From a virus: a stretch of 44,957 nt of DNA. Made by a program: the position numbers and the translations under genes. Position 1 is the first letter of the stretch; each line of letters starts with the position of its first letter. This document shows, piece by piece, positions 2,636 to 9,625 of the stretch. The DNA is taken from positions 1 to 44,957 of IMG/VR virus record IMGVR_UViG_3300009012_000002. One strand, written 5' to 3'. The notes beneath the pieces are model-generated. The model did no database searches and was not told where the DNA came from. It saw only the letters and a list, made by a program, of their open reading frames with translations.

Positions 2636-2815
2636 CTAATCCAATTCCAAATTAATAATTACTATGGCATGTTGCTTTTCATCTTTGTGTGATTCTCTAA
2701 ACTCTTGATGAACAGATTTAATATCAAACTCTTCTCCATTGTCATCATCAATAACTAAAACGTCAGCGTCATCTTCAAACTGTTCTAACTTATCTATCAA
2801 TTGTTTAACTGTCAT
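2636..2815 (-). CDS. Small acidic protein, 59 aa
   Basis: A 59-codon frame beginning MTVKQLIDKLEQFEDDADVL resembles the common small phage protein with an N-terminal helix, a beta strand and an acidic turn (VLVIDDDNGEEFDI). Its ATG overlaps the stop of the leftover DNA polymerase tail (2812..2862) as ATGA. This suggests the gene was directly coupled to the polymerase before the HNH gene entered. Function is unknown. Confidence 0.65.
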   Translation of the reverse strand: MTVKQLIDKLEQFEDDADVLVIDDDNGEEFDIKSVHQEFRESHKDEKQHAIVIINLELD

Positions 2816-2862
2816 ATCCTCACCTTCCTCATCTCAGCATAATTCGTATCACTAATTTCTAC
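2812..2862 (-). pseudogene. Leftover 3' tail of the DNA polymerase gene
   Basis: On the minus strand these 17 codons read VEISDTNYAEMRKVRI-stop. The intact polymerase upstream ends IEISDTNYAEMRPIKL-stop. Eleven of the first 12 residues match (I/V differs), while nucleotide identity over those 36 bases is only 26/36, nearly all differences being synonymous. The stop overlaps the ATG of the next gene as ATGA. The HNH stop codon overlaps the first codon of this segment. It reads as the original end of the polymerase gene, displaced by an HNH element carrying a recoded replacement end. Confidence 0.75.
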
Positions 2863-3305
2863 CTCTTATTATTATAGTTAAGAGAATGTTTAGTTCTACA
2901 CGCTTTACACCATCTATGGACTTGACCAGTCTTATAATCTTTCCAGATATATAAATTCAATCCGGATAACTTATGGCCGTGTTTACAAAATTCTTTATTA
3001 GTATTCGGATTCTTGAATGTTCCATCTTTAACAGCATCTAGAGTGTTAGTTGAAGTATTACCAATGTATATATGTTCTGGGTTCCAGCAAAATTTAGTTT
3101 TACAGGTGTGACATATTAAGTTGTCGGAGTATAAATCAAAACCTAAATGTATAAATGCTGATACTCTATTGACTAAATGATTTCTACCAAGAAAATGTAA
3201 CTCCCTTTTAACTTTACCAGATGGAGTTAACATAACCCAACAATTACTATCTGTAACTATTCTTCTCTTTATAAGTCTATTTAGCAGGGATTGTCTTAAG
3301 TTCAT
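2859..3305 (-). CDS. HNH homing endonuclease inserted behind the DNA polymerase gene
   Basis: A 148-residue protein with the phage HNH layout: NRVSAFIHLG, then LICHTCKTKFCWNPEHIYIG near the middle, giving the His, Asn and His of the HNH fold plus zinc-binding Cys. A C-terminal zinc finger follows (FCKHGHKL ... RWCKACR). It shares SAFIHLG, CWNP and the C-terminal finger with the HNH at 8045..8506, so the two are paralogues. Its ATG overlaps the polymerase stop as ATGA, and its stop overlaps the displaced polymerase tail. Expected role: a site-specific nuclease that cuts element-free polymerase genes. The first conserved His in the VHRLSA segment of the paralogue is Asn here. Confidence 0.85.
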   Translation of the reverse strand: MNLRQSLLNRLIKRRIVTDSNCWVMLTPSGKVKRELHFLGRNHLVNRVSAFIHLGFDLYSDNLICHTCKTKFCWNPEHIYIGNTSTNTLDAVKDGTFKNPNTNKEFCKHGHKLSGLNLYIWKDYKTGQVHRWCKACRTKHSLNYNNKR

Positions 3306-5761
3306 AATTTAATTGGCCGCATCTCTGCGTAATTAGTATCTGATATTTCAATCGAACACGGTATAGTCAACATATAATTACGTTTAAGACTACAATAAGT
3401 ACTGAAGTCAATGGGAGTTTCAAAATGTTTCTTCATCAATCTGGCATAAATCTCCCAGTTATTCTCTGGCACTTGCATCTTCAAACTATCATGGTCTTCA
3501 CTTAACCACATGACAGCATTATCGCCATTCAATTCATCATCAATAGCTAGAGCGGCTCCTTGCACTAAATGTGCTACTGTTCTTTGTGGTATGTTGGCGT
3601 AACCTTCTTTATATATCTCTTCGTCCATTCTGCCGTTGAATATTCTAAGTCCACCAAATGGGTCCACAATAGCACGCGTTGATTGGACGCAATCTTTGAT
3701 ATCTTGATGGAATTTACTGCGTATCCTTGGAGATGCACCGTGGAATAAATCAAGCATCTGACCAGCACGCCATTCGCTAATAGACATAGGTATGTCATAC
3801 TTTTGAGCATCTGTATTAAACTCTACCATAAACCTATTTTTGCCCATATCATAATTGCCAGCATGTCTTGTCTTCTTTCCACAGAACCTCTCAGGTCCAT
3901 CCTTTTCCATTATATCTACTACTGGAATTGATTCAGTTGTAAGTATTAATTTCTGGCAATATCCAAACATTAGTCCAGCCGTTCGTCTATGTATATCTAC
4001 TTTATCGAACGCTTCAAGTAACTCCCAGTCTTCAGATAATACAGCTACTACTCTTGCTTCAGCCTGACTAGAGTCTGCACTAAGGAAGATAGTTCCTTCG
4101 TCTGGTATAAACATGCTTCGTATGTCTTTAGCCAATCTCCCATGCTTAGAGATAGTGTGAAATGCAAGTCCGATTTTCTTTGGTCTAACTGGCTTCTTAA
4201 GAATGCTTGTAGAGCTTCTGCAAGTTTCTGTTGCTGATATATTGAAAGAAGTTTTGCATCTTCTGTCGTAATCTGAATTGAAATTGATATACCTGCTTTT
4301 TTGTGTCCTGATACGTCTCTCTTCGAGTAAGTCTGTGAGGATTGCTTTCTTCTCTTTTGTCTTGGCATGATTACCCAGCAGTGCAACTATAGTATCTTCA
4401 GATGTTGGATTACGCTTCATATACTTAAATTTCATTTCTCTATATAATAACTCAAACATTTGTGGATAACTATTAACATTTACTTCATGACCAACTGCTA
4501 TAGTCACACGGTCATGAACTACTTTAGCCATTTCTGTATATTTCTTGCGTAATTCTTTCTGTCGTGGAGCATTAACGGCAAAGCCGTTATTTTCCATCTT
4601 CAAATAAAACTTATGTTTCCTCATCATGTAGTCATAATAATATTCCCTCAATGGTATGTTGTATGTAGTTCCCAGGTCAATTAAGTCTTGGTCTTGTACT
4701 TCGTCAATCTCGTATTCAACAGCACAGTCCTTGCCATTATATTTAAATAACTGTTCTACGTTCTGCTTACCTAACTTAAATTCTTTTCCTTCTTCTTTAT
4801 AATATGGCTCACGAGTCCAGAGAGAACTAATCACATGTAGCTTCTTCTCTGGCAATTCAGGAAATATAACTCTTGTCTTAATCAATGTATCAGAATAAAT
4901 ATGTGGCAATTCAAACCCAATCAAGTTAAGTTTAAACTCGTCGTACTTTAAGTTCTGTCCAACTAACTTCAGCCGTCTTAATTGTTCATCAATTAATTTC
5001 CAGATTTCATCCATTTCATGGTCGCCCATATCAGTAAGCCTATACTTACCAATATTGCGAAGTAACGGTATAGATATGGCATGATGCCTGTTGAAAGCAA
5101 ATCCAATACAGACAGGAACGCAATTAATAGACTCAATATCAGTAACTGCTTTGTCGAGTTTTTCATATTTGGCAAAGAACCTATACAAGTCAAGTGAACT
5201 ATGACAAACATCTAGTTGTCTGTCAGGTAATACTAACGCTCGTGTCTTAGATTCCTCAACAGCACGAGCTATATCATGCTCAATTAATTTAATGTATGTG
5301 TATTCTAATCCACCCTTATCACCCCTGTTAAATAGTGCGGCTGGATGAACTGTTGGAACTACCTTAGTAACACCATCCTTAGCCAATAATATGCTACCAC
5401 GATACTTAAGGATACCAGTATAACCAGTAACGTGCTCTAATGCTGTGTCACCAACAGCCAAAATACATTTAGGTTTAAGACGGTGTATTTCTTCATCCCA
5501 TAACCTCTTAGCTTCATCAGATAAATCCACACCTATCATATGTAACTTTTTCAAGTCATTCATGGGTGGCTGATACTTGCATACATTTGTTACATATACC
5601 TGATTACGTCTTATCCCAGCCTTATTTAGACAATCATTAAGCATTTCTCCTGATGGTCCTGAGAACGGTATACCAGTTTCATTCTCATGTTTACCAGGTG
5701 CCTCTCCTACTACCATTAAATCTGGCTCAATAGGACCTATTCCTTCAACGTATCTTGGCAA
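3302..5761 (-). CDS. Uracil-DNA glycosylase/family A DNA polymerase fusion
   Basis: An 819-residue replicative polymerase. Residues about 14-150 form a UDG-superfamily domain with GEAPGKHENETGIPFSGPSG and the second motif TVHPA. A 3'-5' exonuclease follows: TDIES near 208, GQNLKYDE, and YNGKDCAVEYE. The polymerase domain has motif A ADSSQAEARV (about 560), motif B KKTRHAGNYDMG (about 630) and motif C EDHDSLKM (about 754). Motif B has His where family A usually has Lys, and motif C reads HDS rather than HDE. The catalytic Asp residues remain. The start is TTG, overlapping the upstream gene. The last 12 conserved codons are duplicated beyond the adjoining HNH gene. Confidence 0.9.
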   Translation of the reverse strand: MPRYVEGIGPIEPDLMVVGEAPGKHENETGIPFSGPSGEMLNDCLNKAGIRRNQVYVTNVCKYQPPMNDLKKLHMIGVDLSDEAKRLWDEEIHRLKPKCILAVGDTALEHVTGYTGILKYRGSILLAKDGVTKVVPTVHPAALFNRGDKGGLEYTYIKLIEHDIARAVEESKTRALVLPDRQLDVCHSSLDLYRFFAKYEKLDKAVTDIESINCVPVCIGFAFNRHHAISIPLLRNIGKYRLTDMGDHEMDEIWKLIDEQLRRLKLVGQNLKYDEFKLNLIGFELPHIYSDTLIKTRVIFPELPEKKLHVISSLWTREPYYKEEGKEFKLGKQNVEQLFKYNGKDCAVEYEIDEVQDQDLIDLGTTYNIPLREYYYDYMMRKHKFYLKMENNGFAVNAPRQKELRKKYTEMAKVVHDRVTIAVGHEVNVNSYPQMFELLYREMKFKYMKRNPTSEDTIVALLGNHAKTKEKKAILTDLLEERRIRTQKSRYINFNSDYDRRCKTSFNISATETCRSSTSILKKPVRPKKIGLAFHTISKHGRLAKDIRSMFIPDEGTIFLSADSSQAEARVVAVLSEDWELLEAFDKVDIHRRTAGLMFGYCQKLILTTESIPVVDIMEKDGPERFCGKKTRHAGNYDMGKNRFMVEFNTDAQKYDIPMSISEWRAGQMLDLFHGASPRIRSKFHQDIKDCVQSTRAIVDPFGGLRIFNGRMDEEIYKEGYANIPQRTVAHLVQGAALAIDDELNGDNAVMWLSEDHDSLKMQVPENNWEIYARLMKKHFETPIDFSTYCSLKRNYMLTIPCSIEISDTNYAEMRPIKL
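3317..3352 (-). repeat. Recoded copy of the polymerase C-terminal segment
   Basis: These 12 codons, IEISDTNYAEMR, are part of the intact polymerase. They correspond to 2827..2862 on the other side of the HNH gene. Nine of twelve codons differ between copies, eight of them synonymously, including TCA versus AGT for Ser and CGG versus AGG for Arg. That is expected if this copy arrived with the homing element and carries a changed cleavage site. Confidence 0.7.
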
Positions 5762-5960
5762 GGTCTTCTTCTGTCATTTTAGAAAGTGTATGTTCATTTA
5801 ATGAGTTAACAACACCGATTTTGAGATATTTAATCCATCTACATACTTCACATAACCACGGCCATCTGCTCTCATCGTCCCATTCCCAGTTTGGCCTTCT
5901 AAGACATTCAGAACATAAATCTTCATATTGCTTATGGATTCTTTCCTGATGGCTTGGCAT
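5745..5960 (-). CDS. Small zinc-binding protein, 71 aa
   Basis: The chosen start (MPSHQERIHKQYE) shares one base with the upstream stop as TAATG. A longer frame beginning MGNSRW would run through the upstream gene. The protein has two Cys pairs, LCSECLRRP and LCEVCRW, separated by a Trp-rich loop, which fits a single zinc knuckle. Its stop overlaps the start of the DNA polymerase gene. Function is unknown. Confidence 0.65.
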   Translation of the reverse strand: MPSHQERIHKQYEDLCSECLRRPNWEWDDESRWPWLCEVCRWIKYLKIGVVNSLNEHTLSKMTEEDLAKIR

Positions 5961-8044: not shown

Positions 8045-8506
8045 TTAGCTAGTTTTTGTGTTGGTTTTTGGTTGGTTGTGCCTTCTATTTCTATTCATAG
8101 TATTATGACATAATTTACACCTTTTTGTTCCATCACTTCGTATCTTGCTATTTCCCTCCTTTGGATGCCCACATCTAAAGTTTGGCAGTAATGTTATATC
8201 TTTCATATTATCAGCATGTGTACCTACATGTAGACAGTTAGGATTCCAGCAATTTCTACGGAAACAACTTGGCTTATGTAGAGCATGAGAATCTGTATCT
8301 TTTAAGTTGAGACCTAAATGTATAAATGCCGATAATCTGTGAACCTCTATATCTCTGCCTTTAATTCCTCCAACTTGCATCACACCACGTCCACTATGTG
8401 TTGTCTTTCCAATCCATAACCAATGTCCATCTTCTGTTATCTCAGTCTTATTGTTAAGCCTAGCAAGAAGTCTCTTCTTATCATAGAACTTCTCTGGCTT
8501 AAGCAT
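8045..8506 (-). CDS. HNH homing endonuclease inserted behind the Sak4-like ATPase gene
   Basis: A 153-residue protein starting MLKPEKFYDKKRLLARL. The ATG follows the ATPase stop by one base with GGAGAA upstream; a longer frame would run inside the ATPase gene. Motifs: WLWIGKTTHSGRG, EVHRLSAFIHLGL, ALHKPSCFRRNCWNPNCLHV, GTHADNMKDI, then a C-terminal Cys finger (FRCGHPKEGN ... RCKLCHN). It is a paralogue of the HNH at 2859..3305. The usual second His (NPxH) is Cys. Its last ten residues NQPKTNTKTS resemble the ATPase tail NQPQTTPEPT, suggesting fusion to a displaced ATPase 3' end. Confidence 0.85.
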   Translation of the reverse strand: MLKPEKFYDKKRLLARLNNKTEITEDGHWLWIGKTTHSGRGVMQVGGIKGRDIEVHRLSAFIHLGLNLKDTDSHALHKPSCFRRNCWNPNCLHVGTHADNMKDITLLPNFRCGHPKEGNSKIRSDGTKRCKLCHNTMNRNRRHNQPKTNTKTS

Positions 8507-8507
8507 G

Positions 8508-9398
8508 TTAGATTCTCCATTTGGTTGGTTCTGGTGTGGTTTGTGGTTGGTTTGCGAATGGGTTGATTGCATTTGGAACTACTAACTGTTTGCTATCTAT
8601 TTCATTTGACACCACTCTCAGTTTGAGAACTTGCTCTTTCCAAACTTCGTAGAACAAGCGATTAGTAATTTCAAATTCACCTGTTAAACCCAGATTTGAT
8701 TTGGCGAAGTCGTCGCCTATTGCATCAGTAGATACTATATATCTAGTGCGGCTAGTTCCAGTAACGCTATCCCAATTACTTTGTTTAGCGAAATGATAAA
8801 TCTCGCTGAAATTACCAGGAACAATACTAGCCACTTTATTACCATATGTCACGATTGGATTTACTTTAGTTACTTTCATGGACGAACCAGAACCTTCAAT
8901 CTTAATCGATGGAACTGGATGACAAGTCCATATGACATGACATGGTAATGTTCTACAAATATCTAAACATTGTGTTACCAGACTTGTTTCAACCTTGTAT
9001 TCGTCAAAGTCTGGCATAATCTTATCTTTGTCTTTTGCTTTTTTGTTGTCTCTGAATGCTAGTGACCAGTTAACAGCGCCACTGGTCATGTTAGTAATAG
9101 AATCATTAATGATTGCAAAGTATCTACAATCTTTAACAAAGCCTATTAACTTGTTGAGAAATTCGTTTGCATTGCTAGCACCATATACGTCATACTCTAT
9201 ACGGTCTTGCAATTCTGGTCTATTGATAACTCTTCTAAAGAAATGGTCTAGCTCGATTGGTTTCTTCTTATCCCAATATGCTAAATAAATTGGCCCTTCA
9301 ACTGCAAATGTAGCCGCTGCCAATGTCTTACCAAAACCCCAAGGGCCTTTCATAAGTATAGATACGTTCTTATCTACGGAGATTTCACTAGCTTTCAT
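8508..9398 (-). CDS. Sak4-like AAA ATPase, phage recombination/annealing protein
   Basis: A 296-residue P-loop ATPase. Walker A is GPWGFGKTLAAATF near residues 19-32, and the Walker B-like strand is YFAIINDSIT. A third motif, HVIWTCHPVPS, matches RecA-like phage nucleotide-binding proteins (AAA family PF13479, Sak4 type). The C-terminal 25 residues are low-complexity (NPFANQPQTTPEPTKW), as in many single-strand binding partners. It sits with an SSB-like gene and a Cas4/RecB-like nuclease, forming a recombination module. The role is presumed to be strand annealing or replication-linked repair. Confidence 0.75.
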   Translation of the reverse strand: MKASEISVDKNVSILMKGPWGFGKTLAAATFAVEGPIYLAYWDKKKPIELDHFFRRVINRPELQDRIEYDVYGASNANEFLNKLIGFVKDCRYFAIINDSITNMTSGAVNWSLAFRDNKKAKDKDKIMPDFDEYKVETSLVTQCLDICRTLPCHVIWTCHPVPSIKIEGSGSSMKVTKVNPIVTYGNKVASIVPGNFSEIYHFAKQSNWDSVTGTSRTRYIVSTDAIGDDFAKSNLGLTGEFEITNRLFYEVWKEQVLKLRVVSNEIDSKQLVVPNAINPFANQPQTTPEPTKWRI

Positions 9399-9625
9399 TT
9401 GTAATTCTCACTATGCCAGATGATTTTCGGATTACGAACATATTCTGTTGCTACTAAATATCTTAGTCTTTTCTCCGGCCTCTCATGTACCCATGTAACT
9501 CCCCATGTTGTATTACCCTCATAATTGGTATATTCAACTATCATATATACTTGTGGGTCATCATAATAATACCCATCATTCTTTATAATCTCATCAATAA
9601 CAGCTTTTGAATCTATAGTTGCCAT
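9395..9625 (-). CDS. Hypothetical protein, 76 aa
   Basis: Begins MATIDSKAVIDEIIKNDGYY and is rich in Tyr and Trp (VYMIVEYTNYEGNTTWGVTW). The C-terminal part (RYLVATEYVRNPKIIW) resembles small uncharacterised phage proteins. Its stop overlaps the ATPase start as ATGA. No domain is recognised. Confidence 0.6.
   Translation of the reverse strand: MATIDSKAVIDEIIKNDGYYYDDPQVYMIVEYTNYEGNTTWGVTWVHERPEKRLRYLVATEYVRNPKIIWHSENYK

Follow-up and report, generated by a model that had tools for sequence, protein, structure and literature searches.

Homing endonucleases must enter near conserved sites without killing their host, and introns and inteins are the textbook answers to this problem. Here we analyse a different arrangement in a 44,957 nucleotide (nt) stretch of viral DNA, hereafter the window (IMG/VR record IMGVR_UViG_3300009012_000002, positions 1 to 44,957), in which an HNH endonuclease gene is placed between a DNA polymerase gene and a second copy of the polymerase 3' end. 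The closest described systems are the WHO elements of Torulaspora and Lachancea yeasts, which carry an endonuclease gene together with a replacement 3' end of their target gene and leave the native 3' fragment downstream as a second homology arm; their homing scheme has been proposed and partly demonstrated (PMC7282813). Mobile open reading frames (ORFs) of fungal mitochondria (Allomyces atp6; Glomus atp6, atp9, cox2 and nad3) likewise combine an endonuclease ORF with a foreign C-terminal segment and displace the native C-terminus downstream (PMC3630166). Free-standing phage homing endonucleases, such as the seg and mob genes of T4 (PMC2988022) and the HNH genes of Skunavirus (PMC12724721), use neither intron nor intein.

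In the window, we put the probability at roughly 80% that the element is a free-standing HNH homing element, which enters a conserved phage gene within its coding end and has no need of an intron or intein. At the level of sequence this reading draws on the duplication itself, the foreign origin of the working gene end, a native fragment left beside the HNH gene, empty sites in relatives and recurrence of the architecture at different genes.

Arrangement of the polymerase locus

On the minus strand the polymerase gene is followed by the HNH gene, a leftover tail frame outside any gene and an ORF of 59 amino acids (aa) (Table 1). The stop of the polymerase and the start of the HNH ORF overlap as ATGA (3305..3302), the HNH stop (2861..2859) falls within the leftover frame (read as 2865..2812), and the stop of this frame overlaps the ATG of the 59-aa ORF (2815), again as ATGA. 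This order with its overlaps had been described in an earlier note made from the sequence alone and was confirmed at the same positions, as were the 11 of 12 residues and 26 of 36 bases common to the two 12-residue tail segments. The codon counts given there were wrong: seven of the twelve codons differ, not nine, and six of these differences are synonymous and one is not, instead of eight synonymous ones. The polymerase ORF is complete before the HNH gene, which hence does not lie within an intron or intein; the polymerase start codon is uncertain, with TTG at 5761 as one candidate. No obvious ribosome-binding site was found before the HNH ORF of the window. The final codons of the leftover tail, AAGGTGAGGATATG, form a Shine-Dalgarno-like site for the 59-aa ORF; the tail is no longer part of the polymerase.

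For comparison, about 45 polymerase relatives were taken from IMG/VR, the closest of them approximately 85% identical over the C-terminal 400 residues; no relatives were found in GTDB genomes. A profile of polymerase tails, run over the 4 kb downstream of the polymerase in these genomes, scored the leftover tail of the window at 51.5 bits and the next-best stretch at 23.7 bits, and the two window tails differ in one residue where 6.7 changes are expected under neutral substitution. Both results place the duplicated tail beyond chance. A long tail duplicate occurs in the window only, one of about 45, a sporadic presence as in free-standing phage HNH genes.

Origin of the two polymerase tails

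The polymerases of nearly all relatives end in K-V-K-I/L or similar; only two (L002 and L027) end in PIKI, and neither has an HNH gene at the polymerase end. Alignment of the 51 nt of the leftover tail revealed 44 identical positions with the working tail of the HNH-free relative L021 (41 for L019, 40 for L028) and 31 with the window's own polymerase tail (Fisher P = 0.006 for 44/51 vs 31/51). The working tail is closest to that of the HNH-free L002, with 37/51 nt identical and PIK in common. Over the last 25 codons of the window polymerase L002 is also the nearest relative (0.84, the next 0.72), and over the 25 codons before these L019, L021 and several other relatives are equally near (0.88 at the aa level), with L019 first by nucleotides. 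The foreign tract possibly extends about 25 nt further upstream, to approximately 3376, where the nearest relative switches. Because the leftover is nearest to L021, and the working tail and last 25 codons are nearest to L002, the leftover is identified as the native tail, pushed downstream, and the working tail as an import from another lineage that arrived together with the HNH gene.

In this respect the earlier claim that the element brings a replacement polymerase end holds; the description of that end as recoded by design does not. At residues conserved between the two window tails 5/11 codons are identical, and polymerase orthologs at 80-85% aa identity have a mean codon identity of 0.52; the supposed recoding thus equals normal ortholog divergence, and deliberate recoding was rejected as unnecessary. 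Codon identity is lower in a few of the other cases described below (L046, 4/18; L110, 0/6; KentuckyRacer, 2/10), too little for a claim of selection for recoding.

In all relatives the K-V-K-I/L codons that end the polymerase also spell out a ribosome-binding site for the gene that comes next (AAGGTGAAATATGA; in the window, for example, 2812..2823), and this next gene differs in almost every relative. In L001 (7467..7735) and L024 it is a small non-HNH gene of unknown function (PHROG 18063), after which the polymerase tail recurs in short form with synonymous differences (EMRKVKI; YKEMRKVKI). L005 has a homologue of this small gene after the polymerase without a tail copy.

Table 1. Features of the polymerase locus in the window
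Feature	Coordinates	Strand	Remarks
Uracil-DNA glycosylase (UDG) and family-A DNA polymerase gene (target gene)	3302..5764	minus	Pfam PF03167 UDG, PF00476 DNA_pol_A
Working polymerase 3' end, IEISDTNYAEMRPIKL and stop	3302..3352	minus	foreign replacement; closest to the L002 tail
HNH endonuclease ORF, 148 aa	2859..3305	minus	signature CHTCKTKFCWNPEHIYIGN intact; PHROG 826/1492/1872
Leftover frame, EVEISDTNYAEMRKVRI and stop	2812..2865	minus	displaced native polymerase 3' end; matches the L021 tail
Next ORF, 59 aa, unknown function	2636..2815	minus	PHROG 5861, E 2.6e-7

The HNH protein

The HNH protein of the window matches PHROG 826 with an E-value of 4.5e-14. An alignment of its relatives showed invariant H, C, N, P and G residues, corresponding to the HNH and zinc residues, so that the motif is intact. 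All flanked HNH proteins in the scan described below match PHROGs 826/1872, and most of them also 6254. The AlphaFold2 model of the window protein reached a predicted local distance difference test (pLDDT) score of 84; a fold search with this model gave only weak PDB matches, the best to the homing endonuclease I-PpoI and others to SMAD-MH1, and a PDB sequence search with the HNH alignment gave no match. Group I intron-encoded HNH genes interrupt a gene within intron RNA, and no Rfam intron match at the gathering threshold was found in the window or the other loci searched. By domain and context the HNH gene of the window belongs to the free-standing phage HNH genes. A separate insertion was seen in L066 (6639..7645), where approximately 330 aa interrupt the polymerase in frame, from around CGKKAQPLDSQILTPTGW to IVTHN before T; this insertion is intein-like.

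Duplicated gene ends beside other HNH genes

To find similar arrangements, the DNA on either side of each ORF was translated and the two flanks were compared, with a score threshold of 50. In the set of polymerase loci, 4/16 HNH genes scored at least 50 vs 1/1069 other ORFs (P = 2e-7), and the single non-HNH ORF resembles a tRNA-type repeat. In a wider set, duplicated flanks were found for 4/67 HNH genes and 0/698 other ORFs. When weaker matches were also taken in, provided that they were anchored at a start or stop, ten loci were obtained in which HNH genes of the same protein families are flanked by two copies of one end of an adjacent gene, which differ from each other synonymously.

In most cases the next gene's 5' end is the one duplicated. 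A 3' end is duplicated for the polymerase of the window and for a conserved gene in L010, where the fragment is fused to the C-terminus of the HNH protein. Copied 5' ends belong to the ATPase in L049 and L046 (up to the Walker A motif), to a conserved 417-aa gene in L063, to a distant UDG-polymerase in L110 (none of the six conserved codons identical) and to the next gene in L152, thymidylate-synthase-like by eye; L095 also has a duplicated end beside its HNH gene. Two cultured phages were found through their HNH homologues: Streptomyces phage KentuckyRacer, with a duplicated nucleotidyltransferase 5' end, and Gordonia phage Malisha, with a duplicated lysin B 5' end.

Over the ten cases 139 codons could be aligned, of which 39 are identical, 74 synonymous and 26 nonsynonymous. 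Because neutral change would give 85.7 nonsynonymous codons, most of the divergence between the copies probably arose while both were functional.

High-scoring flank matches of L123, L067 and several control ORFs were rejected as low-complexity, GC-rich or tRNA-like repeats; one in L242, with a score of 54, was left unclassified. In Forrest and BrutonGaster the neighbouring sequence differs and a stub was not seen. HNH genes also directly follow the polymerase in L051, L055, L056 and L058, which makes the polymerase 3' end a recurrent insertion place; these polymerases have no remnants, and their tails showed no clear pattern of discordance. A second HNH gene of the window (8045..8572) overlaps the 3' end of an ATPase gene (8508..9407) by approximately 60 nt, and no duplicated end was found there.

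Comparison with insertion-free relatives

KentuckyRacer (PQ244013) was compared with Jollison (PQ184817), whose downstream gene is about 98% identical. Their left flanks are identical over 150 nt, as are 35 nt of the native nucleotidyltransferase start, after which the HNH gene follows in KentuckyRacer. Behind it stands VLLRTIHGSH, the same peptide as in the native gene with 3/10 native codons, and with 20/30 nt identical to Jollison and 25/30 to Wofford. Beyond this peptide the approximately 115 nt displayed are identical to Jollison except for one base in the next codon. The native start is left as a stub, and a respelled 10-codon copy is joined to an otherwise native gene. KentuckyRacer was the only record to cover most of a query containing the HNH gene, and the downstream gene was common to 83 records.

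Malisha (OP434458) and Spooky (MK937597) are identical over the last 240 nt of the upstream gene. The annotated HNH ORF of Malisha uses the start of lysin B itself, with 75/75 nt behind the start codon native, and the working lysin B gene restarts past the HNH gene with 47/75 nt identical to the native sequence, a divergence that fades after approximately 90 nt.

L046 and L048 have polymerases with 98% identity. In L048 a small upstream gene abuts the ATPase gene, and in L046 a stub of about 22 codons, the HNH gene and a new ATPase start lie between them. Over its first 20 codons this new start is 40-47% identical to L048 and 73-90% to L049; in most later stretches the ATPases of L046 and L048 are 60-80% or more identical. 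For the stubs of L046 and L049 the match to the native start of L059 (87% and 83%) is better than that to their own working starts (63% and 74%, respectively), and the working ATPase 5' ends of L046 and L049 match each other at 83%. L059 itself has an unrelated-looking HNH gene upstream and no stub. In L010 the fragment and the following gene (MNNYEI...) stand in the order that is native in L045 and L160.

The earlier note had predicted that in relatives without the HNH gene the polymerase would run directly into the 2636..2815 gene. At other loci the corresponding empty sites were found (L048 for L046, L045 and L160 for L010, Jollison for KentuckyRacer, Spooky for Malisha); for the window's own locus, no relative has the 2636..2815 gene after the polymerase.

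Two further Streptomyces phages have HNH genes beside tRNA genes. In JimJam (L261, 337..832) a different HNH gene extends over the start of a gene for tRNA-Pro. This tRNA carries paired anticodon-stem changes relative to Jollison and is otherwise nearly identical, as if it were an element-borne tRNA version. In TomSawyer (L264, 1560..2030) an HNH gene and a divergent tRNA-Ile (GAT) lie between nucleotidyltransferase and FtsK, in place of a different tRNA-Ile-like sequence of Jollison.

Discussion

According to the proposed mechanism, the target gene consists of two parts, A and B, and the HNH enzyme would cut the native, element-free allele near their junction. The break would then be repaired from a co-infecting element-bearing genome, which supplies the HNH gene and a divergent short gene end. 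At a 3' end the element would be B'-HNH and the repaired locus A-B'-HNH-B, in which the native body is joined to the divergent B' of the element and native B remains as a fragment; at a 5' end the element would be HNH-A' and the repaired locus A-HNH-A'-B. In both types a full-length gene would be rebuilt and the intact target would be gone, with its halves apart and the rebuilt junction spelled differently, so that the rebuilt allele should resist cutting. The left-over fragment would provide the second homology arm for the next round of homing, and the element would be inherited with a bias. In the window, retention of the fragment may be helped by its service as ribosome-binding site of the next ORF.

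Several observations weigh against this interpretation. An HNH-free polymerase with a PIKL-type end, which the earlier note had named as contrary evidence, occurs in L002 (PIKI), although kinship of L002 with the donor lineage is the better explanation. The donor assignment of the working tail draws on 51-75 nt in rampantly mosaic genes. No close empty-site relative was found for the window's own locus; in a search for the polymerase followed by the 2636..2815 gene, neither the relatives nor IMG/VR nor phage records yielded a homologue of the 59-aa gene. As protein similarity was the means by which most duplicates were detected, the synonymous excess is biased upward; the comparisons of KentuckyRacer and Malisha with their relatives are free of this bias. 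Finally, most surveyed HNH neighbours have no duplicate, including the HNH genes directly after the polymerase in L051, L055, L056 and L058, and the architecture is for this reason either not general to the HNH family or its remnants are often lost.

Among other explanations, ordinary mosaic recombination at a short shared sequence fares best, and we still consider it unlikely. The tail encodes the ribosome-binding site of the next gene (AAGGTGAAATATG); cassettes of genes would recombine at this place and take an extra tail with them, and the HNH gene would be a passenger without any part in its own insertion. The turnover of the gene after the polymerase in nearly every relative and the short duplicate (YKEMRKVKI) around a small non-HNH gene in L001 and L024 fit this view, but the duplicate of the window is much longer than a ribosome-binding site, duplicates are strongly tied to HNH genes over other ORFs, and the 5' cases, such as KentuckyRacer and Malisha, would require both a respelled patch and two exact joins within the target gene. 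Slightly less probable is a real but incidental replacement, in which a conventional free-standing endonuclease cuts elsewhere and the exchanged ends mark the boundaries of co-conversion tracts. For the free-standing endonucleases of T4, cuts hundreds of bases away from the endonuclease gene are indeed frequent (PMC2988022); plain co-conversion, however, overwrites the recipient's own sequence, and no native fragment stays next to the HNH gene, whereas here the fragment in every case adjoins the HNH gene or is no more than tens of bases away from it, and the divergence ends within approximately 35 nt (KentuckyRacer) to 90 nt (Malisha).

A tandem or target-site duplication at insertion, with later divergence of one copy, would place a copy on each side of the inserted gene, but it is already contradicted by the mostly synonymous divergence (a dead copy should gather aa changes), by the remnants of the window, L046, KentuckyRacer and Malisha, which are nearer to the working end of an HNH-free or native relative than to the neighbouring copy, and by KentuckyRacer, where the remnant is native and the working copy divergent. 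An unrecognised self-splicing intron or intein with both tails in one spliced product is equally improbable: HNH genes often sit in group I introns, and the ShiLan methylase insertion was once interpreted in this way (PMC11855218), but a complete tail and stop precede the HNH gene in the polymerase and make splicing unneeded, Rfam revealed no intron at the gathering threshold, and the working genes of KentuckyRacer and Malisha are complete after the HNH gene.

With replacement of a gene end by a free-standing HNH element as the preferred reading, the parallel to WHO elements drawn in the earlier note stands in anatomy (PMC7282813); endonuclease family and target differ. As in WHO elements, an end fragment of the target is displaced beyond the endonuclease (44/51 nt to L021) and the working end is discordant with the rest of the gene (nearest to L002), the latter more cleanly in KentuckyRacer, Malisha and L046. 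WHO resistance lies in allelic differences, with discordant divergence of the replaced end (PMC7282813); resistance here is presumed. The WHO endonucleases are LAGLIDADG relatives of HO/VDE with a single main target, FBA1, act on nuclear yeast genes and replace only 3' ends, whereas the proteins described here are HNH by PHROGs and alignment, their neighbours are phage polymerase, ATPase, nucleotidyltransferase, lysin B and other genes, and mostly 5' ends are concerned. Its mode of action would be that of a WHO element, but another endonuclease family and other targets set it apart from that class. For Glomus atp6 the native copy is 91.2% identical to a relative and the two copies are 63.5% alike (PMC3630166), values close to the 86% and 61% found in the window. 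The fungal ORFs differ in residing in organelle genomes, in the LAGLIDADG endonuclease of Glomus atp6 and in that only C-terminal replacement was described (PMC3630166). The T4 and Skunavirus genes are described as intergenic insertions with cuts possibly far off, and resistance of the recipient comes through the donor allele and co-conversion (PMC2988022; PMC12724721), for which a counterpart here is likewise presumed.

The ShiLan account describes a methylase insertion with an out-of-frame HNH gene. The first 11 residues of this insertion are similar to the 11 that follow the insertion site, and nearer to uninvaded than to invaded methylases (PMC11855218). Judged from this published description, it bears the native-stub and replaced-end signature of the 5' type. 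It differs in that the methylase frame stays open; the authors discussed introns and inteins and, in the part of the account available, did not propose end replacement (PMC11855218). Our search of the open-licence literature gave no account of phages in which a gene end is replaced and the displaced fragment of the target gene stays beside an HNH gene; a prior description elsewhere is possible.

End replacement had so far been known in a single family of yeast elements and in some mitochondria of fungi. It is fairly likely that phages possess a widespread third route of insertion besides introns and inteins, in which a short cut-resistant sequence replaces the gene end beyond the cut, at gene starts as well as ends, and stubs can become start signals of the HNH gene (Malisha, L063, L110), a natural form of cleave-and-rescue. 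That it recurs among phages, for several genes and for either end of a gene, points to a general strategy. It would account for odd overlaps and repeated peptides next to HNH genes, the ShiLan insertion possibly among them, and offers a driver for the rapid turnover of gene ends in mosaic phages. KentuckyRacer and Malisha, two cultured phages with close insertion-free relatives, make the proposal testable in the laboratory and would be small natural counterparts of the cleave-and-rescue principle on which engineered gene drives draw.

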